DNA of 64,000 nt from Verrucomicrobiales bacterium (GTDB lineage: Bacteria > Verrucomicrobiota > Verrucomicrobiia > Verrucomicrobiales > DEV007). The notes under the pieces are model-generated. The model was not told where the DNA came from and made no database searches. It saw only the letters and a list, made by a program, of their open reading frames with translations. The stretch is from assembly GCA_029213195.1 (NCBI GenBank), contig JARGNI010000009.1, positions 1-64,000 of the forward strand. The letters are read 5' to 3'. The stretch's first letter is position 1, and each line of letters starts with the position of its first letter. Of this stretch, positions 24,967-47,301 are shown one piece after another. The translations under genes and the position numbers were made by a program.

Positions 24967-24970
24967 GGGA

Positions 24971-27900: not shown

Positions 27901-28069
27901 GGTGATCAATCTCCTCCGGAACCTGGAACGAGGGAACTTCCCCTTCGACCTTTTCCTCGACGCCGTTCTCGGAAGCGCTCGTAAAAGTGGCAAGCGAGAA
28001 AGACATCAGGAACAGAACGATCGCAGCATTCCAGAACGAGGTTCCGGTTTCTGATGATGACTTGAACAT
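24971..28069 (-). CDS. Large dihaem exported protein (PSCyt/DUF1592-DUF1588-DUF1585 type)
   Basis: Protein of 1032 residues with an N-terminal hydrophobic signal (about 12-31). The first haem site CYTCH lies at 62-66 in LLANYCYTCHDADVQKGEIRLD, the PSCyt1-like start. The central DUF1592-like core spans about 500-700. Near residue 876 RSCWHCHEKMNPLGYPFEIYDDFG marks DUF1588 with the second CxxCH. A C-terminal DUF1585-like part ends in SDSFIYRKPIED. It forms an operon with the DUF1552 gene (4 bp gap). Role unknown; the family is typical of PVC bacteria and linked to polysaccharide or glycoside oxidation by context only. Confidence 0.9.
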   Translation of the reverse strand: MFKSSSETGTSFWNAAIVLFLMSFSLATFTSASENGVEEKVEGEVPSFQVPEEIDHLLANYCYTCHDADVQKGEIRLDQLVGMETSKRLDLLNRMQEQLFFQHMPPKKEDQPSEEERAAILAVVSAELQVHQASTLEGKLEKPEYGNYVDHEKLFSGEYRDLPGSTRDRRWLISEYIFNAKFQRILETRATVRRGKQRLEVVGSKKIRDVSLANPFLLPKTVGVRYYANEDLTGGHLSSMLTNAQKVSEFITDRHVPKRGGKYLPAVTEILALEESHMETLSSRHEFLENFIERICEEVHGDQHESLLPDFEPVELKPLEKGDGYKKAPIHVAQNMLKNLEGAETVYRYLYEPEHAQKADEEFRALCERTWFYRGDHERKIQGRMGILREYMDEIREAAEGMRRKIKPLEYKPLAEEEMEAIHASIGKHRKKGDRYASLIERCLSEWEQEFVQERIDAGPPSEELLATLVDQVSTLILERAPTAEERSDYVSLTQAYVDKLGRRKAVQKLIQTFLLSSEFAYRNEFGTGEPDAHGRRMLSPRDASYALAYALTDQSPDEELVAAAQGDRLNTREDYRREIERLLARRDVHTLIDPILEDKNFNDNSTSLPIRELRFFREFFGYPKALEIFKDEKRFGGDRLANATSRLVNEADRLVEYILEKDQNVFEQLLSTEKFYVYHDGDNERMQEKSDQIKRIYAYFKDTGWQNFDYEELAKHREFLRKEPMRSINPDKLESGNRQGDGLTLFKKSLTSITARLDKGQKDAAPFDLYRGYGSDFMPGENVAKFWGYRKDNWHWSAVQPAKVPNRKGMLTHPAWLVAHAFNTETDPVHRGKFVREKLLADTIPNVPITVDAQIPEDHHKTLRDRLASATETRSCWHCHEKMNPLGYPFEIYDDFGRYRIEEYLEYPEHLIEKRPDEAPKRNHLLDLRDVYKTLPVDASGYLEGTGNESLDGELDNAIDLADRLAESRRVRQSIIRHAFRYFLGRNEFLSDSKTLMDAEQAYLESGGSFDAVIVSLLTSDSFIYRKPIED

Positions 28070-31892: not shown

Positions 31893-32057
31893 GAAGGAAA
31901 GAGAAAACAGAATCGGAATGTTTCCACTGGAAAGGCCGCCCTCAACCGGCCCCCACCCCTCCTGTCCAAAGAGTGAGGTGTCGACATCATAACGCGTTCA
32001 CGTTCTTGTGAATGGGTGGGAATCAAGGCGATCCTGCATGGACCGAACGGAGCCGTT

Positions 32058-34745
32058 TTGAACCCTTCCCTTCCCATCTTCAGGCGATCCCGGACGCTCG
32101 CGCTTCTGCTCGTTCTCCTCGGGCAAGCATTTGTCCCAGTCTTCGCGACGCCTGCGAACAAGAAGGCGCTCGCGAAGGTTTTCGGCCCACACCTTCCCGC
32201 TCAACGCGATACCTGCGCAACCTGCCATGTCGCAGCCGAGGCGCATGGGGCGGAATCCCTGGAAGACTTTCCTCACAATGCCTTCGGAAAAGCCCTCCAT
32301 TCCCTCGATGGCCCGATCCGGGATCGCATCGGGATCGCCCTCGACGAGGACAGTGATGGAGACGGGATCACAAACCGCGACGAAATCCTCCTCGGGCTCC
32401 CCCCTGGCACTTCGAACCAACAGGGTCAGGTCGTTGACTCAACCCTCTTGCGTGAAAAAAAAGAAGCCTTCGCGTCCTGGCAGAAACGCTACCCCTGGGA
32501 GCCTTTCGCTCCTGTGATCCGCCCCACGGTTCCGGTGCCTGAAAACGGAGACTGGGGCACCAACGCGATCGACGCATTCCTCGCCGAAAGTCACCGTGCC
32601 CAGGGATTGAAGCCACGCCCCGAATCCCCTCCCGAAGTCTGGCTTCGCCGGGTTTCCCTGAACTTGACCGGACTTCTTCCCAGGACGGAAGAAATCGTCG
32701 CCTTTCGAAAGTCTTATTCCGAAGCTCCGCAACAGGCCCGGGAAGAAGTCGTCGATCGACTCCTCACCAGCCCTCAATACGGCGAGCGATGGGCGAGACA
32801 CTGGATGGATGTCTGGCGCTACTCGGACTGGTCGGGCTACAAGGACGCGGTCCGGGTCAGCCAACCGCACATCTGGCGCTGGCGGGACTGGATCGTCGAA
32901 TCGTTGAACGAGGACAAGGGATACGACCAGATGATTCTCGAGATGCTCGCAGCAGACGAAGCGATGCCGACGGACGAGAACTCTCTTCGAGCCACCGGCT
33001 TTCTCGTCCGAAATCACGACGTGGGAAGTCGCGACGTCTGGCTCGACAACGTGGTCAGCCACACCTCGCAGGCATTTCTCGGGATCACGATGGGATGCGT
33101 GAAGTGTCACGATCACATGTATGACCCGATCCCGATGGAGGAATACTACTCGATGCGAGCCATCTTCGAGGGATACCATGTCCGAACCGATCGGGTTCCC
33201 GGTCAACTCGACCCCAAGAAGGAAGGACTCGTCCGGGCCTACGCGCGCACTCTCGCACCGAAGACCTATCTCTTCGAACGAGGGGACGAACGGTTTCCTG
33301 TGAAAGACAAGCCGATCACCCCTGCCGTGCCCGCGGTCCTCGGCGGAACCTTCGACATCGAAGAAATCCAGCTTCCAAGAGAAGCGTGGCAACCCTGGCG
33401 ACGGGACTTTGTTCGTCGCGAGATGAAAGAAGAGAAACTCGCGGCCATCGAATCTGCTCGCGAGAGACTGGCCAAGCAGCAGGCGTCCGGCCCCGCAAAG
33501 CCAACCTCTCCCGAGGTAAAGCGCGAGGCGGAGCTCGGACTCGCGAAGGTCGAGGCGAAACTCGCCGCTCTCGAGGCGGAGTTCCTCGCGGAAGACAGGG
33601 AAGAGGACCTGGGACGGGAATCGGAAGAATGGATCGCGGCCGCTCGCTCAACCCTGACCTTGCAACGCGAAGCCAACTTGATCGAAGCACAGTGGAAGAA
33701 ACAAAAAGGAGAGAACGCCCTCTCCTCAGGCGAAGCGGCCCTCCAGACCGCCAAGGAAAAGAAAGACAATACCAAGGAGGCGGCGGCAAAGAAGAAGATC
33801 GCCGCAGCGAAAAAGGAGATCGGAGACACCGAGAAAGCGATCGCCGCAGCGGAGAAAGCCAAAAAGAAGGAAGTCACCACCAAATTCACCGAGCGCCAGA
33901 AAAGCCATCCGAACCGTTCCAATGGGCGTCGCCTCGCCTTTGCCCGCTGGCTCACTGAAAAGCGGAATCCGCTGACCGCTCGAGTCGCCGTCAACCATGT
34001 CTGGCTGCGACATTTCGGTCAGGCCCTGGTGCCGACCGTCAATGAATTTGGTGCCAATGGCAGGGAACCTCTTCATCCTGCCCTCGTCGACTGGCTTGCC
34101 GCAGAGTTCATGGAGTCCGGGTGGAGTCTTCAAGCGCTTCACCGAAAGATCGTCCTCAGTTCCGCCTACCGCATGAGCGGAACTCCGGAAGCGGAGAACC
34201 TCGCTCGCGATCCCGACAATCTCTACTACTGGCGAATGCCTTCGCGTAGGATGGAAGGCGAGATCGTCCGGGACAATCTCCTCTGGGTTTCCGGGAAACT
34301 GGACACGACGATGGGGGGACCGGAGATTCCGCAGGGCGAGGCGATGAAGACTCCCCGTCGTTCGCTCTACTTTCGCCACGCGCACGAGAAGCTCGTCGAA
34401 TTCGTTCAGATCTTCGATGGGCCCAAGGTATCGGAGTGCTACCAGCGAGTCGAAAGCGTGCAACCTCACCAGGCTCTCGCCCTTCACAACAATCCCCTGA
34501 CGGAAGCCTCGGCTTCCGCCCTCGCCGAAGAACTTGCGGAACAGGCGAAAGGTGACTCGAGACGCTTCATCGACCTCGCCTTCTTCTCCCTCCTCGGTCG
34601 GGAGGCAAAGCCGGAAGAGATCGCACTCTGCGAGGAATTCCTGACCGATTCCGAATCCGGTTCGGAAACCGCGAATCCCGAGCGGGCCCGGAAACGCCTT
34701 CTTACCGTCCTCTTGAACCACAACGATTTCATCACGATCCGATGA
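32058..34745 (+). CDS. Exported monohaem DUF1549/DUF1553 protein with long internal coiled coil
   Basis: About 895 residues from the TTG at 32058, which has a GGAG box 5 bp upstream and starts a clean signal peptide; a GTG at 32016 is the alternative and would add 14 residues. A haem motif CATCH lies about 50 residues in, then a Ca-binding-like DEDSDGDGITNRDE. DUF1549 follows (LRRVSLNLTGLLPRTEEI, ERWARHWMDVWRYSDW), with the MGCVKCHDH segment carrying a second CxxCH. Next comes about 155 residues of Lys/Glu/Ala-rich coiled coil, then DUF1553 (NGRRLAFARWLTEKRNPLTARV, QALHRKIVLSSAYRMS). It overlaps the DUF1501 gene by ATGA, so the two are co-translated. Function unknown; this pair is typical of PVC bacteria. 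Confidence 0.9.
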   Translation: MNPSLPIFRRSRTLALLLVLLGQAFVPVFATPANKKALAKVFGPHLPAQRDTCATCHVAAEAHGAESLEDFPHNAFGKALHSLDGPIRDRIGIALDEDSDGDGITNRDEILLGLPPGTSNQQGQVVDSTLLREKKEAFASWQKRYPWEPFAPVIRPTVPVPENGDWGTNAIDAFLAESHRAQGLKPRPESPPEVWLRRVSLNLTGLLPRTEEIVAFRKSYSEAPQQAREEVVDRLLTSPQYGERWARHWMDVWRYSDWSGYKDAVRVSQPHIWRWRDWIVESLNEDKGYDQMILEMLAADEAMPTDENSLRATGFLVRNHDVGSRDVWLDNVVSHTSQAFLGITMGCVKCHDHMYDPIPMEEYYSMRAIFEGYHVRTDRVPGQLDPKKEGLVRAYARTLAPKTYLFERGDERFPVKDKPITPAVPAVLGGTFDIEEIQLPREAWQPWRRDFVRREMKEEKLAAIESARERLAKQQASGPAKPTSPEVKREAELGLAKVEAKLAALEAEFLAEDREEDLGRESEEWIAAARSTLTLQREANLIEAQWKKQKGENALSSGEAALQTAKEKKDNTKEAAAKKKIAAAKKEIGDTEKAIAAAEKAKKKEVTTKFTERQKSHPNRSNGRRLAFARWLTEKRNPLTARVAVNHVWLRHFGQALVPTVNEFGANGREPLHPALVDWLAAEFMESGWSLQALHRKIVLSSAYRMSGTPEAENLARDPDNLYYWRMPSRRMEGEIVRDNLLWVSGKLDTTMGGPEIPQGEAMKTPRRSLYFRHAHEKLVEFVQIFDGPKVSECYQRVESVQPHQALALHNNPLTEASASALAEELAEQAKGDSRRFIDLAFFSLLGREAKPEEIALCEEFLTDSESGSETANPERARKRLLTVLLNHNDFITIR

Positions 34746-36232
34746 GCGAATCCCCTTTTCCTTCCCGCCGACGATTTCTCGCGGACACCGGCATGGGTGC
34801 CACCGGCGTGGCTCTCGCCTCGATTCTTTTTCGGGACGGAGAAGCCGCTGCCTCGCAGGTTTCAACGGGTCCTGATCCACTTGGTCGATCCCACTTTCTC
34901 CCCAAGGCCAAGTCGGTCATCTGGATCTTCAATATCGGTGGAGTCTCCCATCTCGAGAGCTTCGACCCCAAGCCGATGCTGAATCGGTATGCCGACAAGT
35001 CGATCGACGAAACCCCCTTCGCGGACATCGTCGATCCGAAGCGGGTCAATGAGAACCTCCTCGATCCAAAAAAGGCGGAGCGGGAAGTCTACAAGAAGAT
35101 CCTGCCGCTCCAGACCGGTTACAAGAAATACGGAGAAAGCGGGATCGAGGTCAGTGACTGGTTCCCCCACATGGGTTCCATGGTCGACGAGATGACAATC
35201 GCCCGCGGGATGTGGACGATCGACAACAACCACGGTGCCCAGCTGACCTATCACACGGGTCGCAAGATCACGGAGGGGGCCTTTCCCACCGTCGGAGCCT
35301 GGGCTAGCTATGGACTCGGCACGCTGAACTCCGATCTGCCCGACTTTGTCGTTCTTGGCAACCCGAGCGCCGACTGCTGCGGCGCCGCCTACACTCATGG
35401 TGGATCCTATCTCGGACCGCAATACGACGGAGTTCGGCTCAAGGTGGATCCGAAGAACCCACTGAGCTTTGTCCAGCCAGCCGATCCGTCCCTGAGCGTC
35501 GACGAGCAACGAGAGAACTTCAGTCTTCTCGGACGACTCAACCGCCTCGCCGGAATCGAGTATCCCGACGATCAGAAGCTCCAGGCTCGGATCAAGAGCT
35601 ACGAACTGGCCTTCCAGATGCAGACCGCCGTCCCCGAAGTGATGGATCTCGAGAAGGAACATCCCGAGATCCGGACGATGTATGGTCTCGATCAAAAAGA
35701 GACGAAACCCTTTGGAGAGAAATGTCTCGCCGCTCGTCGACTTGTTGAACGAGGCGTTCGATTCGTCCAACTCTTTCACGGATACACCGGAAACGCCGGG
35801 GCCTGGGATTCGCACCGCGACATCCAGAAGAATCACTCGCGGCTCGCCAGGCAGGTCGACCAACCGGTGGCCGCGCTGATTCGCGATCTCAAGCTCCGGG
35901 GACTTCTCGACGATACGCTCGTCGTATGGGGAAGTGAGTTCGGACGAACCCCGGGAGCAGAGTTTCGGGACAAGAACGTCAACGGGACGGGTCGCGATCA
36001 CCACCCACAGGGATTCTCGGTAGTCATGGCAGGAGGAGGAGTCAAGAAAGGACACGTTCATGGAGCTACCGACGAACTTGGTTTCCATGCCGTGGAGGGA
36101 CGGCACTACGTGACCGATCTCCATGCGACAGTTCTCCACCAGCTCGGGCTCGATCCGAGGAAGCTGGAAGTTCCCGGACGCAAGCGTCTCGACCGGGATT
36201 TCGGCGAAGTCATGCACGGTGCGCTCGCGTAG
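34742..36232 (+). CDS. DUF1501 family exported protein (Tat)
   Basis: Protein of 496 residues with twin-arginine signal SRRRFLADTGMGATGVAL. DUF1501 features: VIWIFNIGGVSHLESFDPKP near residue 58 (metal-ligand-like in this alkaline-phosphatase-superfamily clan), LNSDLPDFVVLG, GAWDSHRDIQ, and the closing VWGSEFGRTPG...GRDHHPQGFSVVMAGGGVKKG. DUF1501 is related to the alkaline phosphatase/sulfatase fold but its reaction is unknown. The start codon overlaps the stop of the DUF1549/DUF1553 gene (ATGA), which fixes the start and indicates translational coupling. The GNAT gene at 36261 follows by 28 bp and is probably on the same transcript. Confidence 0.92.
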   Translation: MSESPFPSRRRFLADTGMGATGVALASILFRDGEAAASQVSTGPDPLGRSHFLPKAKSVIWIFNIGGVSHLESFDPKPMLNRYADKSIDETPFADIVDPKRVNENLLDPKKAEREVYKKILPLQTGYKKYGESGIEVSDWFPHMGSMVDEMTIARGMWTIDNNHGAQLTYHTGRKITEGAFPTVGAWASYGLGTLNSDLPDFVVLGNPSADCCGAAYTHGGSYLGPQYDGVRLKVDPKNPLSFVQPADPSLSVDEQRENFSLLGRLNRLAGIEYPDDQKLQARIKSYELAFQMQTAVPEVMDLEKEHPEIRTMYGLDQKETKPFGEKCLAARRLVERGVRFVQLFHGYTGNAGAWDSHRDIQKNHSRLARQVDQPVAALIRDLKLRGLLDDTLVVWGSEFGRTPGAEFRDKNVNGTGRDHHPQGFSVVMAGGGVKKGHVHGATDELGFHAVEGRHYVTDLHATVLHQLGLDPRKLEVPGRKRLDRDFGEVMHGALA

Positions 36233-36739: not shown

Positions 36740-37771
36740 TCAGCGATAGGCCTCCGGTCTCTTCGGAACGACGCCGAGTTTCTCGTAGTTGAAGCCACTC
36801 TCCAGCGGCTCGTAGTCCCCGACGATCGCGACACTACTCTTGGGTGAAATCTCATTCTCCATTTCCAATCCCCAGTAGACCGCATTGATGACAAGGCGAC
36901 GCAATCCCGCGCTTTCGAGATCCCGCGCGCTTCCCATGGTAGATTGGAAAACCCGGGCTTGCTCTCCGTTGCTCGTTTCCCACATTTTGCACCACGCCAC
37001 AGGGAGAGGCTTTTTCTCCACGTTGGGTTCATCGTCCGGTTGCCGCCCCATCAGCGGCTGCCCCCAGACGAGTGGCACGCAACCTTCGGGGAGACTCGTC
37101 CCCTCCTTGTAGGTTCGATAGACATCTGACGGTCCCCAGACGTCCTCCACTCCCTGGACAAGGGGATGCTCGGCATGTGCTTCATCGATGGATCCCCGAG
37201 TCGAATCGGCATGCCATCGCCCATGATGCCCCATGAAGGCACCGCCAAGAATGTCCCGACCGAAGTTCACTCTCTTTCCCTCTCGCTCGTAGGGCAGTGG
37301 CCCGCGAAATCCATGGTTCGCGGTGCGTAAGGCGAGAATGGGTTTCCCGGAGTCGAGATAGTCGACCATTTTTTCCAGCTGTTCGGGAGGGAGTGTGAGG
37401 AGCCGATGAAAGAAGATCACGAGATCCGCCGAGGCAAGATGCTCGAGCCCGGGGATCGAGTGTTGCTGGAACGCCTCCTCTTCCCTTTTCTTCGGGTATA
37501 CGGGCATGGTGGGATCCACCTCACCTTTCTTGTTCACTCCGAAGAGGACCGTGCAGTCGAAGCCATGATGCGTACTCAGGATCCTGGCCATCATCGGCAT
37601 GGCCTGCTCGCTACGATACTCCTGATCCGCGGCGATCAAAACAATGTGCTTCCCCTTCCCCGGTCCATCCCCACCGGAGTAGGTGAGCCAGAGTTCACTC
37701 TCGGGAACGGGATGTTCCGCAGCGAAAGCCAGAAACGGGAAAAGGAAAGAAAAGAGGATGCGAGTCGTCAT
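36740..37771 (-). CDS. Exported ThuA-like protein, last gene of the pentahaem operon
   Basis: Protein of 343 residues from the ATG at 37771, where a Sec signal starts (MTTRILFSFLFPFLAFAAEH). ThuA fold: KHIVLIAADQEYRSEQAMPMM, ADLVIFFHRLLTLPPEQL, ILALRTANHGF, then HPLVQGVEDVWGPSDVY and the closing ARVFQSTMGSARDLESAGLRRLVINAVYWGLE. It differs from the protein at 2030-2845 by a longer loop (about 170-210) rich in His. It lies 34 bp after the beta-propeller gene on the same strand, so it is the third gene of a transcript with the pentahaem cytochrome. By analogy to rhizobial ThuA it may act on 3-keto sugars; context puts it near redox proteins (inference). Confidence 0.85.
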   Translation of the reverse strand: MTTRILFSFLFPFLAFAAEHPVPESELWLTYSGGDGPGKGKHIVLIAADQEYRSEQAMPMMARILSTHHGFDCTVLFGVNKKGEVDPTMPVYPKKREEEAFQQHSIPGLEHLASADLVIFFHRLLTLPPEQLEKMVDYLDSGKPILALRTANHGFRGPLPYEREGKRVNFGRDILGGAFMGHHGRWHADSTRGSIDEAHAEHPLVQGVEDVWGPSDVYRTYKEGTSLPEGCVPLVWGQPLMGRQPDDEPNVEKKPLPVAWCKMWETSNGEQARVFQSTMGSARDLESAGLRRLVINAVYWGLEMENEISPKSSVAIVGDYEPLESGFNYEKLGVVPKRPEAYR

Positions 37772-37804
37772 GGAGTACAGAGAGGAACAGCGAACCATCC
37801 CGTC

Positions 37805-39295
37805 TCAAGGTTGGGGAATTTCATTCACCGTGTAGTAGGCTTTTTTGTGAAGGAGCGGCTTCCCTTCCGCCGACCTCATTGCGGGAAGTCCGAAATCGTG
37901 GATGTGTCCCTCGACCATGGAATCGAGAGTGATCCTGACCGACATCCCATCCGGAGAAGGAACCGCCTTCACCACCGTGGGCGAAGTGTGATCCACCTCC
38001 GGGCTTCCATACCCCGCCGCATAATTGTGGGTATAAGTCGTGATCTCGAAAACCTCGGGCCGGGCTGCCACGCCGGGATCGACGGGAAGGGTAAAATGAA
38101 AGAGAAACCCATCTTCCTGAATATTGATTTCCCGGATTTCGAACGGCGTCTTTCCACTCCAGTCGATTCGCTGGATCGCGAAGGGCTCCTCACCCCGGAC
38201 CGGCCATTGGCGGTTCGTCGTGAATCCGCCTGCAATGAGCTGCCCCTTCGGAGAAAACTCGACATTCATGATCCCGGTCGCGAGACCTTCACGAAAGGGA
38301 TAACAGGCCCCCTGCCAGACACCATTCACCTTCTCCGTCGTCGCTCGCAGAATGATACTCAGGGTGTAATCCCCGAGAAAAATCTGATCCTCGAAGGGGC
38401 CGAACTTTCCTCCCGTCTGGTTCAGGCGAAAACCGGAAATCGATCGTCCCATCTTGATGTAGGGAAACCGGATCACCGGAGGCACGAGTTCCTTGACTCG
38501 CTTCTTCTCGACCTGGAGTCGCGAGGGCGTATTCGGCTCGACGGATGGAGCATCCATCCCCGGAACGAAGGGATACCAATTGTAGCTCGCCGGATGCCCC
38601 AGGAATCCACCCGGCTTCAGGTGCTTGAGCGAACAGCTTCCATTCCACGGTCCCTGGCTCTCGATACAGAACATGGCTCCCTCGGCATTCGGCCCGACAC
38701 CTCCTGGACTCCGCAGCCCACTGCAGATCGGGATCATCTTCCCTTCCGGCGTCACCTTGACGGCCCAACCGCGAAACAGATTATTGGAATGATAGGAACC
38801 GCTCAGGCCCAGCGCGACCCAGATATTCCCCTCGGGATCGTGCTTCGAACCAAAGGCAAACTCATGGCCTTCGGCGTAGCCCCAGTTGTTGGTCAGGGTT
38901 TCATACTCGTCCGCCACCTCATCTCCATCGAGATCCCTGATTCGGGTCACTTCTCCAAACTGGGTCGCCGTCATCGCCCCATCCTTCCACGAGAGCCCGA
39001 AGATCTCGTCCTGACCGCTGGCGAAGAGATGATACTTCGGAGCGGGAGGATTCTCGAAAGCACCTTCGATAAAGTAGATGTCTCCCCTGCGGGTTCCGAC
39101 AGCGAGCCGACCATCCGGCAGAATCTCAAAACTCCCCGGGCGCATCGGAACTCCCGGTGGAATCGGAATCGTCACGATGGGGTAGTACTCGGCTTCGGCC
39201 TGCGCCGTGCCCCAGGCTTCACCCAGATCCTCGGCGGGAAGGAATGGCGCGAAGGACAGGACCGAGAGAAGAATGCAATTTCGAAAGGTTACCAT
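37805..39295 (-). CDS. Exported beta-propeller protein (glucose/sorbosone-dehydrogenase-like)
   Basis: Protein of 496 residues with a Sec signal (MVTFRNCILLSVLSFAPFLPA). Repeating blades read PGSFEILPDGRLAVGTRRGDIYFI, FGLSWKDGAMTATQFGEVTRIRD, EFAFGSKHDPEGNIWVALGL and VKVTPEGKMIPICSGLRSPGGV. That is the six-bladed glucose/sorbosone dehydrogenase-like or DUF7133-type propeller found beside PVC cytochromes. Its ATG overlaps the stop of the pentahaem gene (ATGGTAA). PQQ or another cofactor cannot be shown from sequence. If it is a dehydrogenase, the pentahaem protein is the obvious electron acceptor (inference). Confidence 0.8.
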   Translation of the reverse strand: MVTFRNCILLSVLSFAPFLPAEDLGEAWGTAQAEAEYYPIVTIPIPPGVPMRPGSFEILPDGRLAVGTRRGDIYFIEGAFENPPAPKYHLFASGQDEIFGLSWKDGAMTATQFGEVTRIRDLDGDEVADEYETLTNNWGYAEGHEFAFGSKHDPEGNIWVALGLSGSYHSNNLFRGWAVKVTPEGKMIPICSGLRSPGGVGPNAEGAMFCIESQGPWNGSCSLKHLKPGGFLGHPASYNWYPFVPGMDAPSVEPNTPSRLQVEKKRVKELVPPVIRFPYIKMGRSISGFRLNQTGGKFGPFEDQIFLGDYTLSIILRATTEKVNGVWQGACYPFREGLATGIMNVEFSPKGQLIAGGFTTNRQWPVRGEEPFAIQRIDWSGKTPFEIREINIQEDGFLFHFTLPVDPGVAARPEVFEITTYTHNYAAGYGSPEVDHTSPTVVKAVPSPDGMSVRITLDSMVEGHIHDFGLPAMRSAEGKPLLHKKAYYTVNEIPQP

Positions 39296-42009
39296 CGGTA
39301 TTCCAGGATGAGTTTCGTTTGTCCTGCAGGAAGAGTGATCGGGAGTAGTAGCTCGGCAGGTTCCCCGTCCCGCAGCACAGCATCGAACGCAGCTGGTATT
39401 CGCAACTCAATGCCGCCAACGGCATACCGGCCCTCGGCAACCCGCTTCACCTCAGAACCCGCAGCGGCACGGAAATAGAACTCCTCCTGCGGCTCAGCGA
39501 CCTCAAAGGTGAGGACTCTCCGAAACCACCCACGGCCCGCTTCATCGATCCGGTCTTCGAAGAAATCTTCCACCGCGACCTCGCCGTAGCGATAGCGAAA
39601 CGTGGGCCGACGACGCTCATCGAGAAGGTAGCCGCGGAACTGGTAGCCCTGATCCTGGGGAAAGAGGTAATCAGTCTTCCCCTTGTAAGGCCAGTCGTCA
39701 TCCATGGATTCGAGACGGGAGAATGGAATGCCCGGTGGGAAAGCGATTTTTTCACTCCCGATCGCGCGGAACGAACCATGATTGACACTCGCAAAGTCTC
39801 CCTTCCAGAGAAGCCGAAGCGCCATTTCCTCGGAATCGAAGGCGAGGTTGACCCGCTCCGGATACCCCACCCCGATTCCACGGAATCCGGCCGTTCCCCT
39901 GCCCCGGACGATCTCGGCGACATTGCTGACCCGGATCTCGTTGGACTGCCGAGACAGCCCCCTCGGCTTCTTCGCCCGGGGTCCGTCTTCGAGGTAGTTC
40001 CAGAGCGCTTCGATCTGCCGAGCCGGATCCCCATCGAGCACCTCCGGTCGGACCGACTGACCACCCGGCCAATAATTGGGCATGATCACCGTGGAGTGGA
40101 AACGCTGCGGGTTCCGCATGTAGAGATGAAACCAGTTTTTCTGGATGCGGTCGGTGAGATGGACGATATCGAGCGCTCCCGCCCCACCCGCTTCCTGTCC
40201 GTTGTAGTCATGACAGGCGATGCAACTGAATCCCTCGGCCCCGATCATCTCGTAGCCTGCATTTTTTGATTCGAGAATGTCCGAAACCTCGGGCAGCACG
40301 ACATCCTCGAGGCGATCGACCTTTGCCAACAGATCGATCAGGTCTCCGACATTGGCTTCGCCGTATTGCGGCATCGAAGCGTCGAGATAATGCCTCTGTC
40401 GCTGCCCTCGCAGGAGCACATCCCCCATCCACTGAGGAGTCAGCTTGGCTCCGACATGAGAAAGCGGAGGAGGAATCCGCCCCTGGTTTCCGAGCTCGGG
40501 TTTCGTGGTCGTGAACCAGGCTTCTCGTTTCGGATCGATCCCGCCGACTCCCGATCGGTCGTGACATCCGATGCAGTTGAGCGAAACCATGGCCCGACCA
40601 ATCTTCTCGTGATCCTCGAGGAGGGTGGTCTCCACCTGGGGCAGGACGTCCTTGATCCAGGATCGCTGCGCATCAGAAAGCGCAAACCTGGGAGTCTCCG
40701 AGCCTGTAGGGTCGAGGCATCCTTTGTCCGCGGAAAGTTCCGCGAACCCAGACCATTTCATCGGAGCCACTCCAACATCATCGTGGCAATTGGCACACCC
40801 CAGTCTCCCGAAATGTTCCCGCCCTCTCGCTGCCGATTCGTCATCCAGGGCAAGCTGCTTGAAGGGAGCAACCAGCTCGCGCGACGCCTGGAGAAGTGAC
40901 GAGGCAATCGGTGCTCGCTTCCCGGATGGATCCTCCATCTCGAACGCAAAGGCCGGCTCTCTCCCAGTATGGAAATAGGTCAGGGAAATTTCCCGCAACC
41001 CTTTCTCCATTTCCACCGCCCCTCGAAAGTCTTTGGGACCCCGCCTGTTGCTTGGCTCTTCGACGATGACATCCTGCCCGTCGATTCGCAGGAAGCCTCC
41101 ATTCATCTTGAGATGAAATGCGTATTCGCCACTCTCCGGAAGATCGATCCATCCGTGATACACGACCGCCGTCTGATGAGCGAGCCTACCCAGGCTCTCG
41201 AGGGAAAAGTCATCGACGAGACCGGCACGTTCCGCCGCGACGGAGTCACTCTCCAATCCTTCCCAGACCCGCCCTCGGTAGAGAGTGTAGTTCAGGGATC
41301 CGGGAACCTGGGTCTCCCGCAACAGGTAGTGAGCAATCTGCTCGACCTCCCGTCCCGGGAGATTCATATGCGGCATCCGACCGGAAGGGCGAACCTGGAG
41401 CGGATTCTTCAGAAACTCGGTGAGGCTCTTCACGCTGTATTTTCTCTCCAGGTCTCCCAGCGGGGAGGACGAGTCGCGAAGCAACTCCTCCCCTTCCTCA
41501 TCCCGGGGCGAATGACAGGCGACACAGCCCCGCGAGTGAAAGAGCTTCTCCCCTGCTGCTGCGGCGACGGAATCCGGGGCCTGCAGCGAAAATTGGGCGG
41601 GCTTCAAGGAAAGAAGAAAATGAACGAGGTCGTTCGTGGTCTGGTTTTTCTCCGCCTCACTCATTCCCTGCATCAGGTCCGGCATCGTCGTTCCCGGCTT
41701 GGTCCCGTGTGGATCGGCGAGGAAGGCCTTGAGGTAGTCCGGGTGGACCCGCGAACCGACACCAGAGAGTCGGGGAGCCTGTTTCGACCGCTCCGCAAAG
41801 GGGGCTTCCGAAGAGTGGCAGGCCACGCAGTTCAACTCCTCGAGAAGCACGAGACCTTTGATCTCCGGACCGACCTCGCTGCGGTCCAGCCCCGGTATCA
41901 TTACGCCCTCGGCGATCTCGTCCGCTTGCGCTCGCGAAATACCCGCAAACACACTCAACAAAACAATGAGAAGACCGATCCTGGTCCATTTCGATCGAGC
42001 TGGAATCAT
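39289..42009 (-). CDS. Exported pentahaem c-type cytochrome with embedded PA14-like domain
   Basis: Protein of 906 residues with a signal peptide (hydrophobic 10-25). Five CxxCH motifs: CVACH at 61 and 162, CANCH at about 404, CIGCH at about 478, CIACH at about 596. Between the second and third sites sits a PA14-like beta domain (about 225-350: RGRVWEGLESDSV, YHGWIDLPESGEYAFHLKMNGGFLRIDG), a carbohydrate-binding fold in other proteins. A further roughly 280 residues after the last haem contain no haem site. It is the first gene of an operon with the propeller (start/stop overlap) and the ThuA-like protein. Probable role: accept electrons from a sugar dehydrogenase at a glycan surface. The combination of five haems and PA14 is unusual; function unknown. 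Confidence 0.88.
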   Translation of the reverse strand: MIPARSKWTRIGLLIVLLSVFAGISRAQADEIAEGVMIPGLDRSEVGPEIKGLVLLEELNCVACHSSEAPFAERSKQAPRLSGVGSRVHPDYLKAFLADPHGTKPGTTMPDLMQGMSEAEKNQTTNDLVHFLLSLKPAQFSLQAPDSVAAAAGEKLFHSRGCVACHSPRDEEGEELLRDSSSPLGDLERKYSVKSLTEFLKNPLQVRPSGRMPHMNLPGREVEQIAHYLLRETQVPGSLNYTLYRGRVWEGLESDSVAAERAGLVDDFSLESLGRLAHQTAVVYHGWIDLPESGEYAFHLKMNGGFLRIDGQDVIVEEPSNRRGPKDFRGAVEMEKGLREISLTYFHTGREPAFAFEMEDPSGKRAPIASSLLQASRELVAPFKQLALDDESAARGREHFGRLGCANCHDDVGVAPMKWSGFAELSADKGCLDPTGSETPRFALSDAQRSWIKDVLPQVETTLLEDHEKIGRAMVSLNCIGCHDRSGVGGIDPKREAWFTTTKPELGNQGRIPPPLSHVGAKLTPQWMGDVLLRGQRQRHYLDASMPQYGEANVGDLIDLLAKVDRLEDVVLPEVSDILESKNAGYEMIGAEGFSCIACHDYNGQEAGGAGALDIVHLTDRIQKNWFHLYMRNPQRFHSTVIMPNYWPGGQSVRPEVLDGDPARQIEALWNYLEDGPRAKKPRGLSRQSNEIRVSNVAEIVRGRGTAGFRGIGVGYPERVNLAFDSEEMALRLLWKGDFASVNHGSFRAIGSEKIAFPPGIPFSRLESMDDDWPYKGKTDYLFPQDQGYQFRGYLLDERRRPTFRYRYGEVAVEDFFEDRIDEAGRGWFRRVLTFEVAEPQEEFYFRAAAGSEVKRVAEGRYAVGGIELRIPAAFDAVLRDGEPAELLLPITLPAGQTKLILEYRW

Positions 42010-42132: not shown

Positions 42133-43713
42133 ATGTCTCGGATCCTTCGGCTCTTTCTCCTCTTTGTTCTCACGGCCCATCAGTCGGCTTTCTCCGAAAA
42201 CGAGCCGTCGCTTCCCAATATCGTCATCATTTACGCGGACGATCTCGGCTTTGGCGATCTCTCCTGCTACAACCCGGAATCCGCCTACGAGACTCCACGG
42301 CTCGACCGCATGGCGAGCGAGGGCATCCGGTTTACCGATGCTCACAGTCCCTCCACGATCTGCTCCCCCTCCCGCTATGGCCTCTTCTCCGGCCAACAGA
42401 TCTATCGCTCGACCGGTCGAGGCGGGGGTGCCTTCGAAGGTCCCGGTGGCCCGAGCTATTTGAAACCGGGCACCCTGACCTTGGGAGGAATGCTCCAGGA
42501 AAAAGGCTATCGCACCGGAATCTTCGGAAAATGGCACGTCGGCCTGACCTGGTTCGATGAGAACGGAGAGCGGCTGGGAGGTGGCTTTGAGAATTCTCTC
42601 CTCATCGACTACGAAAAGAGTATGCCACTCGTCGACGGCCCGAATACCCGGGGATTTGATGAAGCCTTCGTCACCCCCAACTGCCCCACGACCGACCCCC
42701 TCTATCTTTACATCGAAAACGGAATGGTCCCGGTCCCCGCGAGCATGCGGCACAAGCGGGACACCCTTCCCAACCCCGGAGGCAAATGGCGCTGGGACAA
42801 CGACGAAGGATGGAAGGCTCCTGGCTACCAATTCGTCGATGCTGACCTCCTCTTTTACGAGAAGACCGAGGCCTTCATTCGTAAGCATCGCGAGGAGCAT
42901 TCGGAGTCGCCGTTCTTTGCCGTGTTCTCCACCCAGATCGCTCATGCTCCCGTGCTCCCCTCGCCTTCCGTCGAGGGCAAAACAGCAGGAGGACCGCGGG
43001 GCGACTTTGTCTTCGAGTTGGATGTCCTGACCGGGCGGGTCCTCGATCTCCTTGCAGAACTCGAAATCGACGACGAAACCCTCGTATTCTTTCACGCCGA
43101 CAACGGCGCGGAAACCATGCATGTCGCGTGGATGCGAGAAGACCACGACCACGACCCTTCCGGGGGATGGCGAGGAGTGAAGCGAGATGGCTGGGAAGGC
43201 GGCCATCGCGTGCCCCTCATCGTAAGATGGCCCGGAACGATCCCGCCAGGCCAGGTCTCCGACCAGATGACCAACACCACGGACTTCTTCGCGACGATCG
43301 CTTCTGTCGTCGGCTACCCTCTCCCGGATAATGCGGCCACCGACAGCTTCGACATGCTTCCCGTTCTTCTCGGAAACCAGGACCCGGCGAAATCAGTTCG
43401 ACCTCACCTCCTCACCCAGAGCTTCCGCGGAGAGTTTCAGATTCGAAAAGGAGACTGGAAGTATCTCGATCACAAGGGCTCCGGCGGAAACGGATATGAC
43501 AAGGGAATCCTCGCTCCCTATGCTCTTCCAGAATCCGAGCCCGAAGCCCCGGGCCAACTCTACCATCTCGGCAAGGATCCCGGAGAGACAACGAACCTGT
43601 ATTTCAAAGAAGAGGAAAAACGGAAAGAACTCCAGGCCCTCCTCGAAGAATTGAAAACCAGTGGAAGAAGCGCACCCCGCAATCGACAACCCCTTGGACC
43701 CCTTCCCAAATAG
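42133..43713 (+). CDS. Exported arylsulfatase-A-like sulfatase
   Basis: Protein of 526 residues with Sec signal (hydrophobic 5-15, cleavage near SAFSEN). S1 sulfatase: IYADDLGFGDL (D36, D37), C77-S-P-S-R81, GIFGKWHVG (about 135-143) with the canonical Lys and His, and FHADNGAETMH (about 318), where the usual DN pair is present but followed by an insertion. It would desulfate a sugar sulfate outside the cytoplasm. It precedes the sialate-O-acetylesterase-like gene by 20 bp, so desulfation and deacetylation are probably co-expressed. It is divergent from the pentahaem operon across 123 bp. Confidence 0.93.
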   Translation: MSRILRLFLLFVLTAHQSAFSENEPSLPNIVIIYADDLGFGDLSCYNPESAYETPRLDRMASEGIRFTDAHSPSTICSPSRYGLFSGQQIYRSTGRGGGAFEGPGGPSYLKPGTLTLGGMLQEKGYRTGIFGKWHVGLTWFDENGERLGGGFENSLLIDYEKSMPLVDGPNTRGFDEAFVTPNCPTTDPLYLYIENGMVPVPASMRHKRDTLPNPGGKWRWDNDEGWKAPGYQFVDADLLFYEKTEAFIRKHREEHSESPFFAVFSTQIAHAPVLPSPSVEGKTAGGPRGDFVFELDVLTGRVLDLLAELEIDDETLVFFHADNGAETMHVAWMREDHDHDPSGGWRGVKRDGWEGGHRVPLIVRWPGTIPPGQVSDQMTNTTDFFATIASVVGYPLPDNAATDSFDMLPVLLGNQDPAKSVRPHLLTQSFRGEFQIRKGDWKYLDHKGSGGNGYDKGILAPYALPESEPEAPGQLYHLGKDPGETTNLYFKEEEKRKELQALLEELKTSGRSAPRNRQPLGPLPK

Positions 43714-43733: not shown

Positions 43734-45698
43734 ATGAAAACCCGAAGCCTATCATTCCTACCCATCCTCCTGCTGATCTCTGCGGCTGCCCTCTGCCTGG
43801 AAAAGGCATCCAGCGAAGAAGTCAACCCGATCCGCGGTGAAGACCTGATCCGATCTCCTGCCATCGGGGAGGGTCTCTGCGTTCACAACGCCTTCCAGTC
43901 CCACATGGTCCTGCAACGGGGCAAGGAGATTTCTATCTGGGGTTGGGCCTCTCCTGGAGAAGAGGTCACCATTTCTTTTGGCAATCATACAGCAACGGCA
44001 ACGGCGGCCGATGACCGAAGTTGGGAAGTCTCTCTTCCGGCGCTTCCCGCCAGCTCCGAACCCGAGTCGCTCACGGTGAAGGGAAAGGATGAGACTCTGA
44101 CCTTGGAGAACATTCTCGTCGGTGATGTCTGGATTCTCGGAGGGCAGAGCAACATGGAGTTTCCCCTTGAGAGGGTCGAAAACGGAGATCTCGAGATCGT
44201 TTCCGCCAACTATCCCGAGATTCGCATCCTCACCGTTCCTGCACAAAACGGCCCGGAACCAAAGAAGGGGTTTGCCCGACTTCACGAGTGGAGCAGTTGG
44301 TCCAGTCGACACTTCCGCAAGGGAGATTGGGACGTCTGCACCCCCGAGGTTGTTCGCGAACTCTCTGCCATCGGCTATGTCTTTGCCCGGCGCCTCCACA
44401 TGGCGTCGCAGGTTCCTATCGGGGTCATTGACGCTTCCCGAGGTGGGACCACGGTAGAAACCTGGACCCCGATCTCGGTCCTCGAATCGATCGATACCGA
44501 AGAGGTCGGAAGCCTGCTCGCAACCTGGAAAGAGAAAGTCGACGCGTGGGATCCGGAAGAAGATCTCGCCAATCGTATCCAGAGACACGAACAGTGGGTC
44601 GAGAAAACGAAGAAAGAGGGCAAGGATCCCAGCAGCCGGGAAGTCCCCACCGATCTTCGCCCGGGTCCGGCAATGGACCAGAACCGACCCGGAAACTGCT
44701 ATGCCAGCATGATCGCTCCACTTGAAGGTCTCGCCGTCAAGGGCGCGATCTTCCACCAGGGGTTCAATAATGCCCTCGGCGGAGGATCCGCAGGAGCCGA
44801 GATGTACTACCAGGTCTTCGGGAAAATGATCGAAGCCTGGAGAACAGCCTTCGAAGATCCCGAAATGCCCTTTGGCATCATCTCGCTCTGCACCGCTGGA
44901 GATCCCCAGACACGGGAAGACTACCTCGAGAAAATGCTGAACGACGGCATCTACATTCGAGAGGCACAGTACAAGACCTTTCTCGATCTCTACAACGCGG
45001 GAGACACCAACATCGGTTTTGCAAGCAGCTTCGATCAACGTCGCTCCTGGTATCACCCCCAGAAGAAACTCCCGGTCGGTGAGAGAATCGCGCGTTGGGC
45101 GCTCTCGACCCAATACGGACTCGAGCAGAGCATCGAGTGGAAGCCCCCGATGCTCACCGAGATGATCGTCGAGGAAGGGCGGATCATCCTCAAATTCGAC
45201 ACTACCGTGAAAGCGATCGACGACAAACCAATCTCTGGATTCGCCATCGCAGGAGAAGACCGTCGTTTCCAGCCGGCAGATGCTGACTTCCTTGTCATTG
45301 GGACCGATGATCGAAACCGACCGAAAACGGACAAGAAGGCCGTCGTCTTGACAAGCCCTCATGTCTCGAACCCGATCCACTTCCGTCATGCCTGGGGAAG
45401 AAACCCGGAAACCAACCTCCAGCGAACCGATCATACCGACATTCCCTTTGCCACCCAGCGTAGTGACGACTGGAAGATGGAGGAAGTCCCCGAGAACTAC
45501 TCCGCCTTCATCCAGGACAATCCGAGACGATTGAAGAGCATCGCACAGCGTGACCTCCGGCTCGACGATCTCGAACGCAAGATCCAGGAAGCCAAGGCCT
45601 TCCTCGAAGAGAACGAAGAGAAATACAGGGAGGACAGGGAGAAAGCAGAGGCGGAGAAAGCCAGGGAACGGGAGAAAGCCGCTGCGGCCCAGCCTTGA
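43734..45698 (+). CDS. Exported sialate-O-acetylesterase-like protein with charged coiled-coil tail
   Basis: Protein of 654 residues with a Sec signal (MKTRSLSFLPILLLISAAAL). Domain order: an N-terminal beta domain (NAFQSHMVLQRGKEISIWGWA), then a SASA domain with nucleophile motif ILGGQSNMEF (S about 140). The catalytic His region reads GAIFHQGFNNALGG (about 340), where the WYQGESN of most SASA enzymes is altered. IFHQGFNN still holds His-Gln-Gly. The last 55 residues are an Arg/Glu/Lys/Ala-rich helix (ERKIQEAKAFLEENEEKYRE...), unlike family members and perhaps a spacer or binding tail. It would remove O-acetyl groups from a sugar. It lies 20 bp after a sulfatase. Confidence 0.85.
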   Translation: MKTRSLSFLPILLLISAAALCLEKASSEEVNPIRGEDLIRSPAIGEGLCVHNAFQSHMVLQRGKEISIWGWASPGEEVTISFGNHTATATAADDRSWEVSLPALPASSEPESLTVKGKDETLTLENILVGDVWILGGQSNMEFPLERVENGDLEIVSANYPEIRILTVPAQNGPEPKKGFARLHEWSSWSSRHFRKGDWDVCTPEVVRELSAIGYVFARRLHMASQVPIGVIDASRGGTTVETWTPISVLESIDTEEVGSLLATWKEKVDAWDPEEDLANRIQRHEQWVEKTKKEGKDPSSREVPTDLRPGPAMDQNRPGNCYASMIAPLEGLAVKGAIFHQGFNNALGGGSAGAEMYYQVFGKMIEAWRTAFEDPEMPFGIISLCTAGDPQTREDYLEKMLNDGIYIREAQYKTFLDLYNAGDTNIGFASSFDQRRSWYHPQKKLPVGERIARWALSTQYGLEQSIEWKPPMLTEMIVEEGRIILKFDTTVKAIDDKPISGFAIAGEDRRFQPADADFLVIGTDDRNRPKTDKKAVVLTSPHVSNPIHFRHAWGRNPETNLQRTDHTDIPFATQRSDDWKMEEVPENYSAFIQDNPRRLKSIAQRDLRLDDLERKIQEAKAFLEENEEKYREDREKAEAEKAREREKAAAAQP

Positions 45699-45768
45699 GG
45701 AAACGCCGCCTGTTCAAGTATTCTCTGCCGTTGACCCAAGCTCCATGTTTGACTAGCATTTGCCCACC

Positions 45769-47301
45769 ATGATTTTTCGCATCCTCTTCTTTCTCTCCGT
45801 TTTCGCGACGACCTGGCTCCTTGCAACTCCATCCTCGTATGCCAATCCCAATGTCATCATCGTGATGGCGGACGACCTCGGCATCGGTGATATCTCCCCC
45901 ACCAATCCGGAGTGCAAGATCAAGACGCCCCATCTCCAGAAGATGGCGGACGAAGGAATCACCTTTCTCGACGCTCACACTCCGAGCTCGGTCTGCACCC
46001 CGACCCGCTATGGGCTCCTGACAGGTCGCTACAACTGGCGGTCCCGCCTTGCGAAAGGGGTCCTGAGCGGAACCAGCGAACACCTCATCCCCGCCGATCG
46101 CCCCACGCTCGGGCATCTCATGAAGGGAGCCGGATATCACACCGCAATGATCGGGAAGTGGCACCTCGGATGGGACTGGGCCAAGGACGGAAAGAAGATC
46201 GACTTTACCAAGCCGGTCAAAAATGGACCGGACATCAATGGCTTCGACTACTACTACGGTCACTGCGGATCCCTCGACATGCCCCCCTACGTGTGGGTCG
46301 ATACTGGGAAGATCACCGCACAGCCGGAACGCGAAGAAGGAGTTACGAGACAGGAGAGTCCTTATGGCTGGTATCGCAAGGGCCCAATCAGCCCCGACTT
46401 CGAGATCGATGAAGTGCTGCCCCACCTCTTCGACAAGTCGGTCGAGTATGTGAACTCCCGCAGCGAGGAAGCAAAGAACGGAACTCCCTTTTTCCTCTAT
46501 CTTCCCCTTCCCGCTCCGCACACTCCCATCGTCCCTGTTCCACCCTTCAAGGATGCGAGCGGGATCAACCCCTACGCCGATTTCGTGATGCAGATGGATC
46601 ACCACATGGGAGATCTCATCAAGGCCGTGAAGGACGCAGGTCTCGACGACAACACGCTGATCGTCTTCACCAGTGACAACGGCTGTTCTCCGCAAGGGAA
46701 CTTCGAAGTGCTTCGCGAGCACGGGCATGATCCGAGTGCCGGGTTCCGCGGTCACAAGGCGGACATTTATGAGGGCGGTCACCGCGTACCGCTCATCGCG
46801 CGTTGGCCCACTTCCATCGAAGGGGGTGCCTCCACGAGCGCACTGGCCTGCCTGACCGATCTCTACACCACCCTCGAAGACATCACCGGACAGGAGCGAA
46901 AGCCCCTCGGCGGTGAAGATGGCTTCAGCCTCGTTCCCGTTTTTGAAGGGAAGGAAACTTCCGGTCGGGAAACTCTGATCAGCCACTCCATCGGAGGCTC
47001 CTTCGCAATTCGTCAGGGTCCGTGGAAACTCTGCCTCTCCGGAGGAAGCGGCGGTTGGAGCGATCCCCGGGAGCCAGAGGCCAAGAAAAAAGGCCTGCCC
47101 CCCATGCAACTGTTCCATCTCGACGACGATCCTGCCGAGCAGAAGAACCTCGTAGCCGAGAAACCTGAGAAAGTGAATGAGCTGTTGCGGCTGCTCGACA
47201 AGGAAGTGAAAAACGGGCGCTGCACCCCAGGCGAAGCGGTCGAGAACGACCGGGACGTAGAGTTCCTCCCCGCCGGAGTCTCATTTCCCGAAGCCGGCTG
47301 A
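45769..47301 (+). CDS. Exported arylsulfatase-A-like sulfatase
   Basis: Protein of 510 residues. The ATG at 45769 was chosen over the in-frame TTG at 45760 because MIFRILFFLSVFATTWLLA is a complete Sec signal. Metal site VMADDLGIGDI (D35, D36), C76-T-P-T-R80, MIGKWHLGWDW (Lys/His present) and FTSDNGCSPQGNF (about 300). A second Cys two residues after the DN pair is uncommon and may form a disulfide. The C-terminus shows no Lys tail. It follows the sialate-O-acetylesterase-like gene by 70 bp and may be in the same transcript as the sulfatase at 42133. Confidence 0.93.
   Translation: MIFRILFFLSVFATTWLLATPSSYANPNVIIVMADDLGIGDISPTNPECKIKTPHLQKMADEGITFLDAHTPSSVCTPTRYGLLTGRYNWRSRLAKGVLSGTSEHLIPADRPTLGHLMKGAGYHTAMIGKWHLGWDWAKDGKKIDFTKPVKNGPDINGFDYYYGHCGSLDMPPYVWVDTGKITAQPEREEGVTRQESPYGWYRKGPISPDFEIDEVLPHLFDKSVEYVNSRSEEAKNGTPFFLYLPLPAPHTPIVPVPPFKDASGINPYADFVMQMDHHMGDLIKAVKDAGLDDNTLIVFTSDNGCSPQGNFEVLREHGHDPSAGFRGHKADIYEGGHRVPLIARWPTSIEGGASTSALACLTDLYTTLEDITGQERKPLGGEDGFSLVPVFEGKETSGRETLISHSIGGSFAIRQGPWKLCLSGGSGGWSDPREPEAKKKGLPPMQLFHLDDDPAEQKNLVAEKPEKVNELLRLLDKEVKNGRCTPGEAVENDRDVEFLPAGVSFPEAG

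Follow-up and report, generated by a model that had tools for sequence, protein, structure and literature searches.

The stretch of DNA analysed here (the window, 64,000 nucleotides) belongs to the draft genome, 95% complete, of an uncultured Verrucomicrobiales-like bacterium. From open reading frame coordinates, three neighbouring genes were identified, all on the minus strand: a gene for a pentahaem c-type cytochrome (39289-42009, 906 aa), a beta-propeller gene (37805-39295, 496 aa) and a gene of the ThuA family (36740-37798, 352 aa), the start codon of which, judged by eye, lies possibly 9 codons further in. The cytochrome stop and the propeller ATG overlap by 7 nt (39289..39295, minus strand), and a spacer of 6 nt separates the propeller and ThuA genes. 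The three closely spaced or overlapping genes reported in an earlier inspection of the DNA (the sequence-only reading) were thus found with exactly these coordinates. The protein which that reading had called ThuA-like matched PF06283 with 40.6 bits, above the cut-off of 33.4. No description of the three-gene set was found among the titles and abstract starts listed from the open-licence literature.

The genes had also been assigned to one operon. Loci were compared for the best 80 of 391 propeller relatives, a partly redundant sample in which 67 propellers remain at <95% identity, and in 27 of these the three genes are adjacent. Among these best 80 of 391 relatives, the cytochrome adjoins the propeller in 67 loci, the 7-nt ATG overlap is kept in 62, ThuA directly follows the propeller in 46 and the full triad stands side by side in 38. 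Both pair and triad recur in other species and in other families of the order. The order of the genes is conserved, which confirms that they form a real unit, beyond chance gathering. Of the 77 loci that extend at least 1.3 kb downstream (among the same best 80 of 391), 30 lack ThuA, so that the cytochrome–propeller core works without it. Orthologues of both core proteins are present, without an adjacent ThuA, in Rubritalea profundi SAORIC-165 (L079). The ThuA-less loci and the partial redundancy of the relatives, with 67 of the 80 propellers more than 5% apart, speak for chance neighbours with unrelated roles; this is extremely improbable given the conserved overlap and the recurrence in other families, and is already contradicted by the natural fusions presented below. 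In L120 and L146, genes for PSD1 and DUF1501 separate the cytochrome gene from the propeller gene; in L071 they immediately precede the cytochrome, a position that PSD1 alone, without DUF1501, takes in L123. A fixed partnership with PSD1/DUF1501 was rejected, as they are only occasional partners.

The cytochrome is made of two class-I haem domains, a PA14 insert, three further haems and a C-terminal beta domain. It was classified as a c-type multihaem cytochrome by its CxxCH sites and by a PF00034 match of 82.1 bits (cut-off 21.3), which was also obtained for 46/46 members of the cytochrome alignment A3; export was judged by eye only. The five CxxCH sites already noticed in the sequence-only reading are located at residues 61, 162, 405, 479 and 596 and are invariant across the 46 rows of A3. 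Alignments A2-A4 hold complete, length-filtered and partly de-duplicated members only. In 60 complete orthologues taken from the loci of the best 80 of 391 relatives, five sites were counted in 58 and four in two, the two four-site orthologues standing outside A3. A candidate distal methionine was found for four haems, all encoded on the minus strand: Met109 in 45/46 rows for haem 1 (CVACH, residues 61-65, 41815..41829), Met212 in 46/46 for haem 2 (CVACH, residues 162-166, 41512..41526), Met546 in 46/46 for haem 4 (CIGCH, residues 479-483, 40561..40575) and Met643 in 46/46 for haem 5 (CIACH, residues 596-600, 40210..40224). The stretch from haem 3 (CANCH, residues 405-409, 40783..40797, minus strand) to haem 4 contains no Met kept in at least 42 of the 46 A3 rows; Cys431 is present there in 46/46. 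A SoxX match (TIGR04485, 65 bits, cut-off 61) spans residues 60-135 of 906 only, and SoxX identity was set aside because this short model covers one of five haem domains.

The model of residues 236-381 (40867..41304, minus strand) matched PA14 structures with Z values of 17.0 to 15.0, and a PDB sequence search with the cytochrome gave one PA14 lead. The Pfam model PF07691 matched 20 of the 46 A3 members (E<=0.01) but not the window cytochrome itself, so the PA14-like insert of the sequence-only reading stands by its fold. Its proposed sugar binding is weakened. At the position of the usual Asp-Asp (DcisD) calcium motif, residues 303-304 read Asn-Gly in each of the 45 A3 rows that align there, with a gap in the remaining one; a same-genome paralogue (L148) has SDDGS at this motif. 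Because of the replacement, assignment of the domain as a calcium-dependent sugar binder does not hold. The fold of the C-terminal beta domain (residues about 692-906, 39292..39936, minus strand) resembles the periplasmic domain of YidC. DUF6797 (PF20601) was detected in 9/46 A3 members (E<=0.01, best 1.6e-4) and not in the window cytochrome. The PSCyt1 to PSCyt3 models (PF07635, PF07583, PF07627) gave no match in the window cytochrome at E<=0.01, and PSCyt3 was matched in 2/46 A3 members (best E 0.0019).

Residues 33-382 of the propeller were predicted to adopt a sugar-dehydrogenase-like fold, the C-terminal beta part lying outside the fold match and being barely covered by the fold search. 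The six best fold matches are sugar dehydrogenases by their titles (Z 29.3 to 27.3), with the best non-dehydrogenase at 23.4, in agreement with the dehydrogenase-like propeller proposed earlier. The predicted fold is common to soluble PQQ sugar dehydrogenases and AA12 (Z 29 to 24), from which the window propeller differs in that no sequence match to them was obtained, that its PQQ site seems incomplete in the part that can be aligned and that no PqqC was detected in its group. PF07995 (GSDH) did not match the window propeller at E<=0.01, and hhalign and hmmsearch likewise revealed no profile-level similarity, the hhalign comparison with PF07995-type sequences reaching a probability of 5% in an implausible register. 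A paralogue at C114 scored 31.9 bits with PF07995 (cut-off 25). PDB sequence searches with the propeller and with ThuA gave nothing useful. The propeller stays below the cut-offs of both PF23500 (DUF7133; 25.1 bits, cut-off 27) and TIGR02604 (22.1 bits, cut-off 122.2). The former is passed by a fusion (L152, 29.5) and by the same-genome paralogues L002 (35.3) and L003 (35.6), of which neither reaches the latter (30.4 and 38.8, respectively).

A polar residue set is kept in 45/45 propeller orthologues, with H144, E145, Q214 and Q328 among the conserved residues. In distant propeller relatives, R195 and Q328 are kept in 26/26 and H144 in 21/26. This conserved set bears on the sequence-only reading, for which a propeller lacking any cofactor or substrate pocket would have counted against a sugar-oxidising system. 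Such conservation, expected of an active site, argues against a propeller that serves as a non-catalytic sugar binder or dock, while other dehydrogenases, for instance exported Gfo/Idh proteins, use the cytochrome as a conduit or as an oxidant of peroxidase-like type. That arrangement is improbable; it is consistent with weak matches to DHOR (diheme peroxidase-type) in 4/46 A3 members, with the lack of a conserved Met at haem 3 and with one Gfo/Idh family, Tat-type by eye (one member tested), in the flank of four loci.

The cofactor site of soluble PQQ sugar dehydrogenases comprises a His, an Arg, a QGP motif, an Arg pair and a Lys. H144, R195 and the QGP motif of the propeller can be matched to this site by eye; the Arg pair and the Lys were not located in the by-eye alignment. 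PqqC was detected in 0/56 genomes of the group, own genome included. As no control genome matched PqqC either, a phylum-wide search was used as positive control and gave PqqC in 8/387 genomes, six above cut-off. PqqE was found above cut-off in 0/56 group genomes; below cut-off its model is useless, with weaker matches in 41/56 group genomes and in 14/14 controls. Judging from these searches, PQQ, the usual cofactor of such enzymes, seems to be missing from the group's own synthesis, and uptake would be possible. An ordinary PQQ-dependent sugar dehydrogenase supplied with PQQ from outside is quite improbable. The best fold matches being PQQ-type enzymes agrees with it, as do the QGP motif and Arg195, which can be aligned with the sGDH motif, and the E. 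coli control genome, in which PF07995 is present and which is not known to make PQQ. A plain PQQ enzyme is made less plausible by the PqqC and PqqE searches, hhalign and hmmsearch, the absence of PqqC from the group contrasting with its presence elsewhere in the phylum; residue 344 points the same way, being Asn or His in 45/45 orthologues and Arg in 20/26 distant propellers.

Natural fusions suggest the chemistry of the partners. In one relative, ThuA and propeller are fused in a protein of 838 aa. A single chain of 1586 aa carries ThuA, PF06439 (3-keto-disaccharide hydrolase), LamG, haem and DUF6797, with a propeller match of 82 bits; the connection to keto sugars drawn in the sequence-only reading is thereby found within one natural protein. 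In a hand-picked set of 22 DUF6797 proteins, of which 20 also match a propeller, CxxCH is present in 18 and a cupredoxin in the remaining four. This exchange of haem for cupredoxin favours electron transfer as the role of the haem protein and supports the earlier proposal that the haem chain takes electrons. ThuA, PF01261 or PF06439 is attached in 5/22 of these picked proteins, two of three ThuA calls and one of two PF01261 calls being below the Pfam cut-off; both sub-cut-off ThuA parts are nevertheless similar to the ThuA of the window (178 and 194 bits). A PF01261 gene lies directly upstream of the own-genome C53 module, and PF06439 and PF01261 genes are found in the window roughly 10 kb past the gene for the cytochrome. 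The DUF6797 proteins resemble the window unit in combining a propeller and a redox domain, at times with ThuA, and perhaps in the DUF6797-like domain; they are single chains, whereas the window parts are separate genes.

The sequence-only reading had considered the locus a candidate for an undescribed system, which is not supported. Proteins uniting propeller and haem have already been recognised as a family in PVC bacteria (TIGR02604, DUF7133), and the literature describes PSCyt haem genes next to sulfatases. The family (TIGR02604/PF23500, including Lac161_ORF7) shares with the window unit a propeller joined to c-type haem and its occurrence in Verrucomicrobiota; the window unit differs by its split over three genes, its five haems, its PA14 domain and a propeller below both cut-offs. 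It is a split variant of this family, in which the function is unclear. Purified Lac161_ORF7 (TIGR02604, HEAT and cytochrome) hydrolyses lactose with a Km of 1.8 mM and was reported as a beta-galactosidase (PMC5342196). Because of this relative, a non-oxidative propeller, acting as glycosidase or lyase with the haem protein used for a different step or for binding only, has to be weighed. The conserved H144, E145, Q214 and Q328 speak for such an enzyme; it would leave unexplained the haem motif or cupredoxin in 22/22 picked DUF6797 proteins, and the TIGR02604 score of the window propeller is far below cut-off, which makes this alternative unlikely. Planctomycete-specific cytochromes are described in PMC5615132 as haem proteins with CBM including PA14, often near sulfatases, and were suggested there to mirror glycoside hydrolases, nothing being known of PSCyt functions according to the same text. 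The window cytochrome is alike in haem, PA14 and sulfatase proximity and differs in that PSCyt1 to PSCyt3 domains were not found in it. In the periplasmic LacABC and DUF1080 3-keto-glycoside pathway (PMC9007349), oxidation comes first and cleavage of the keto sugar follows. This oxidise-then-cut logic would be shared, with LacABC making the keto sugar there and the propeller here.

At least 8 sulfatase genes are present in the 64-kb window. A divergent sulfatase (42133..43713, plus strand) and a SASA-type esterase (43734..45698, plus strand) have close relatives (887 and 1006 bits, respectively) beside the cytochrome–propeller pair of one other locus (L153). A sulfatase match was obtained in the examined flank of only 16 of the 80 loci (best 80 of 391 relatives).

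Taken together, we hold, with slightly less than even confidence, that the haem chain is fed by an exported dehydrogenase of glycosides, the product of which is probably a 3-keto sugar, and that ThuA processes this product. The substrates in this genome would be sugars, probably from sulfated polysaccharide. The propeller would bind a glycoside and remove two electrons from one of its hydroxyls, C3 being the likeliest position, and the electrons would pass through the neighbouring pentahaem protein to the respiratory chain. The keto sugar might then be handled by ThuA as hydrolase, eliminase or isomerase; if this is indeed the substrate of ThuA, glycosides would be opened by oxidation first. 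These steps would presumably take place in the periplasm; the surface location given in the sequence-only reading is unsupported, the N-termini being signal-peptide-like by eye only. The lack of PF07995 profile similarity, the failure to detect PqqC in the group, the unlocated Arg pair and Lys of the PQQ site, the reported beta-galactosidase Lac161_ORF7, the ThuA-less loci, the ThuA and PF01261 calls below the Pfam cut-off and the low sulfatase count in the best 80 of 391 loci speak against this oxidative reading.

A further proposal, speculative and rather improbable, is that the locus represents a new redox glycoside-opening class. The propeller, of sugar-dehydrogenase type, would have replaced PQQ by a different cofactor, which could be formed from residues of the protein itself (Trp/Tyr 217, with Cys221 in this clade), electrons would go to interchangeable haem or blue-copper partners, and enzymes of ThuA, PF01261 or PF06439 type would cut the keto sugar. 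PVC bacteria possess many haem proteins near sulfatases, the role of which is open, and the locus bears on this question. The role is directly testable because the system offers three separable parts, of which two are encoded by overlapping genes, fusions naming the partner chemistry, the haem/copper exchange and a named strain, Rubritalea profundi SAORIC-165. If true, the redox glycoside-opening class would give PVC bacteria an equivalent of glycoside hydrolases directed at sulfated polysaccharide.

The three genes of the unit lie on the minus strand, coding for the pentahaem cytochrome (39289-42009), the beta-propeller (37805-39295) and the ThuA-family protein (36740-37798). Their close packing, noted in the sequence-only reading, was borne out: the cytochrome stop and the propeller start share the motif ATGGTAA, and 6 nt separate the propeller from the ThuA gene. 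The window represents 64 kb of a 5.9 Mb draft genome in 115 contigs, and the ORFs scanned include at least eight sulfatase genes (2901-4391, 13541-15178, 15335-16738, 16904-18307, 42133-43713, 45760-47301, 50962-52407 and 56558-58204). A 1324-aa protein (8612-12586) displaying DUF5060, an apiosidase-like catalytic domain and a beta-porphyranase C-terminal-like domain is possibly an enzyme of sulfated algal galactans. About 10 kb past the cytochrome gene, two genes on the minus strand that share 4 nt (52418-54447) encode a PF06439 3-keto-disaccharide hydrolase and a PF01261 TIM barrel, likely a keto-sugar pair. Two further PVC cytochrome-type systems were noticed in the window, a PSCyt2-PSD1 and DUF1501 pair (32016-36232) and a PSCyt3/PSD protein paired with HXXSHH (23584-28069).

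Conservation of the gene order was considered across genomes. Cytochrome matches above 1100 bits were obtained in eight of the 56 genomes of the group (G000, G001, G018, G024, G036, G043, G049, G055), with the propeller following within 0.5 kb in seven of them and at about 2.2 kb in G055. In an even draw of the phylum, the cytochrome was detected at E<=1e-150 in two of 387 genomes, the own genome being one, and the unit is therefore patchy. Scanning one genome per species uncovered 391 propeller relatives; the analysis covered the best 80 of them, which share at least 73% identity. The cytochrome is adjacent in 67 of these 80 loci (62 with the 7-nt ATG overlap, 5 otherwise), and stands apart on the same strand in seven (0.45 to 7.1 kb). 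It was not found in the other six: four with less than 1.2 kb upstream, including L084 where a different gene takes its place, L125 with 2.3 kb, and L092 across 9.9 kb. ThuA lies directly downstream of the propeller in 46 of the best 80 loci and at 8.2 kb in one; it was not found in 33, three of which offer less than 1.3 kb of room. The complete trio is side by side in 38 of the best 80 loci, or 27 of 67 propellers once reduced to <95% identity; the gene order thus recurs in other species.

Genes are interposed between cytochrome and propeller in L100, L108, L120, L135 and L146; the tested member of one interposed family is a prolyl-oligopeptidase, and PSD1 and DUF1501 are interposed in L120 and L146. 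A sulfatase match was obtained in the flanks of 16 of the best 80 loci, many flanks being short, and sulfatases are thus not constant partners. One locus, L153, keeps the window neighbours SASA (1006 bits) and sulfatase (887 bits) together with a cytochrome-propeller pair. A small gene family occurs in four of the best 80 loci (L079:6448-7248, L078, L082, L084), immediately preceding the propeller in L084 and the cytochrome in the other three; its tested member matches PF07737 weakly (21.7 bits, below the cut-off of 27.4). In five ThuA-less loci (L107, L126, L132, L133 at 4183-6111, L142), the propeller is followed by a HODM-like gene and a glucuronyl-esterase/FGE-sulfatase-like protein, labels based on profiling one member of each.

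The claim of a dehydrogenase-like propeller stood at the level of the predicted fold. The model is good (pLDDT 87.2, pTM 0.89), and its six top structural matches are soluble PQQ-type sugar dehydrogenases (Z 29.3 to 27.3), followed by sGDH and AA12 entries from Z 24.7 downward, mixed with other propellers at Z <=23.4. Rows 1-16 obtained with Foldseek are sugar dehydrogenases by title. Pfam gave DUF7133 alone, below cut-off; against sugar dehydrogenase sequences, hhalign produced no usable match and hmmsearch was insignificant for the window protein. In 45 propeller orthologues and 26 distant relatives, R195, G215, S285, Q328 and W364 are invariant, position 214 is Q/E and position 217 W/Y throughout, and H144 is kept in 45/45 and 21/26, respectively. 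These conserved residues show the pattern of a putative pocket. PqqC was detected in none of the 56 genomes, the own genome included, and in eight of the 387 genomes of the phylum (six above cut-off). PqqE was above cut-off in none of the 56 genomes; weaker matches came from 41 of them and from every one of the 14 controls.

The five CxxCH sites reported for the cytochrome are invariant across the 46 rows of an orthologue alignment; two orthologues outside this alignment have four. Candidate distal ligands in the alignment are Met109 for haem 1 (45/46), and Met212, Met546 and Met643 for haems 2, 4 and 5 (46/46 each). For haem 3, no conserved Met was found before haem 4, but Cys431, between the two haem sites, is invariant. 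The AlphaFold model (mean pLDDT 81.5, pTM 0.67) indicates that the insert at residues 236-381 is rightly called a PA14 fold: this part matches 6qe7 at Z 17.0 and a PA14 domain with bound sugar at Z 15.0 to 14.6. Calcium-binding PA14 domains display a loop with Asp-Asp. Asn-Gly occupies this loop in 45 of the 46 rows (MNGG in 31), the remaining one having a gap, which makes the usual sugar-binding mode doubtful despite the correct fold; the own-genome paralogue L148 has SDDGS in its PA14. Residues 698-906 resemble the periplasmic domain of YidC (Z 11.8; 3.1 A over 156 residues). Nine of the 46 aligned members touch DUF6797 (PF20601) at E<=0.01, and a profile of the C-terminal region matches six paralogous proteins at E<=1.2e-4, and not the PF20601-bearing L155 (E 0.81). 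The first haem domain scores above the cut-off of the NCBIfam equivalog SoxX (65 against 61 bits), and automatic annotation may therefore call the cytochrome SoxX.

The window ThuA matches PF06283 with 40.6 bits (cut-off 33.4). The gap between complete ThuA genes adjoining the unit in other genomes (608 to 488 bits against the window ThuA) and the best ThuA elsewhere (223 bits) or in a fusion protein (244 bits) marks the ThuA of the unit as a separate subfamily. Fusions were also found: L152 carries ThuA and propeller in a single 838-aa frame adjoining a five-haem PA14-bearing cytochrome, and L155 combines ThuA, PF06439, LamG, haem and DUF6797 with a propeller match (82 bits) in one frame of 1586 aa. 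Together with L155, 21 proteins hand-picked among the 65 DUF6797 matches listed (L160 included) were analysed. PF20601 is present in 22/22, PF13442 in 15, PF00034 in 14, the propeller match in 20 (not L235 and L254) and CxxCH in 18. All four proteins devoid of CxxCH (L160, L248, L253, L254) contain a cupredoxin that exceeds the Pfam cut-off, and in the own genome the C79 propeller adjoins a cupredoxin protein. As haem is exchangeable for blue copper, the haem domain is most simply taken as an electron carrier. Five of the 22 proteins bear attached enzymes (ThuA in three, PF01261 in two, PF06439 in one), some below the Pfam cut-off (ThuA in L160 and L254, PF01261 in L253); the ThuA parts of L160 and L254 score 194 and 178 bits against the window ThuA. 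A PF01261 gene is located directly ahead of the C53 pair of the own genome. The attached enzymes are indicative of a keto-sugar chemistry. Another own-genome paralogue (L150:9068-12150) is a 641-aa propeller whose C-terminal part looks CBM-like by eye; its partner gene codes for a one-haem protein.

On the best reading, the propeller would be an exported glycoside dehydrogenase, the cytochrome its electron chain and ThuA a keto-sugar enzyme of the same system, acting here probably on sugars set free from sulfated polysaccharide. A characterised 3-ketotrehalose hydrolase carries PF06439 and periplasmic hydrolysis of 3'-ketolactose is proposed, but an endo-xanthanase/lichenase is placed in the same family (PMC9007349); levoglucosan use involves comparable genes (PMC7676230), presumably of PF01261. 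Lac161_ORF7 speaks against the oxidative reading: this propeller-HEAT-haem protein, which belongs to the same broad family, hydrolysed lactose, and the relevant section mentions no redox test (PMC5342196). Lac161_ORF7 may be a true glycosidase, or a redox glycosidase observed via its end product.

The suggestion that the system is undescribed was weakened: the family is already named and PSCyt haem genes adjoining sulfatases are published, in a paper stating that their functions are unknown (PMC5615132). Among the papers listed, none was found to describe the split form with its three genes and conserved overlap, a propeller partner combining five haems and a PA14, the exchange of haem and cupredoxin on DUF6797 proteins, the replacement of ThuA, PF01261 and PF06439 by one another on a common core, or a dehydrogenase-like propeller in genomes where PqqC was not detected; these features would be new within a family itself known.
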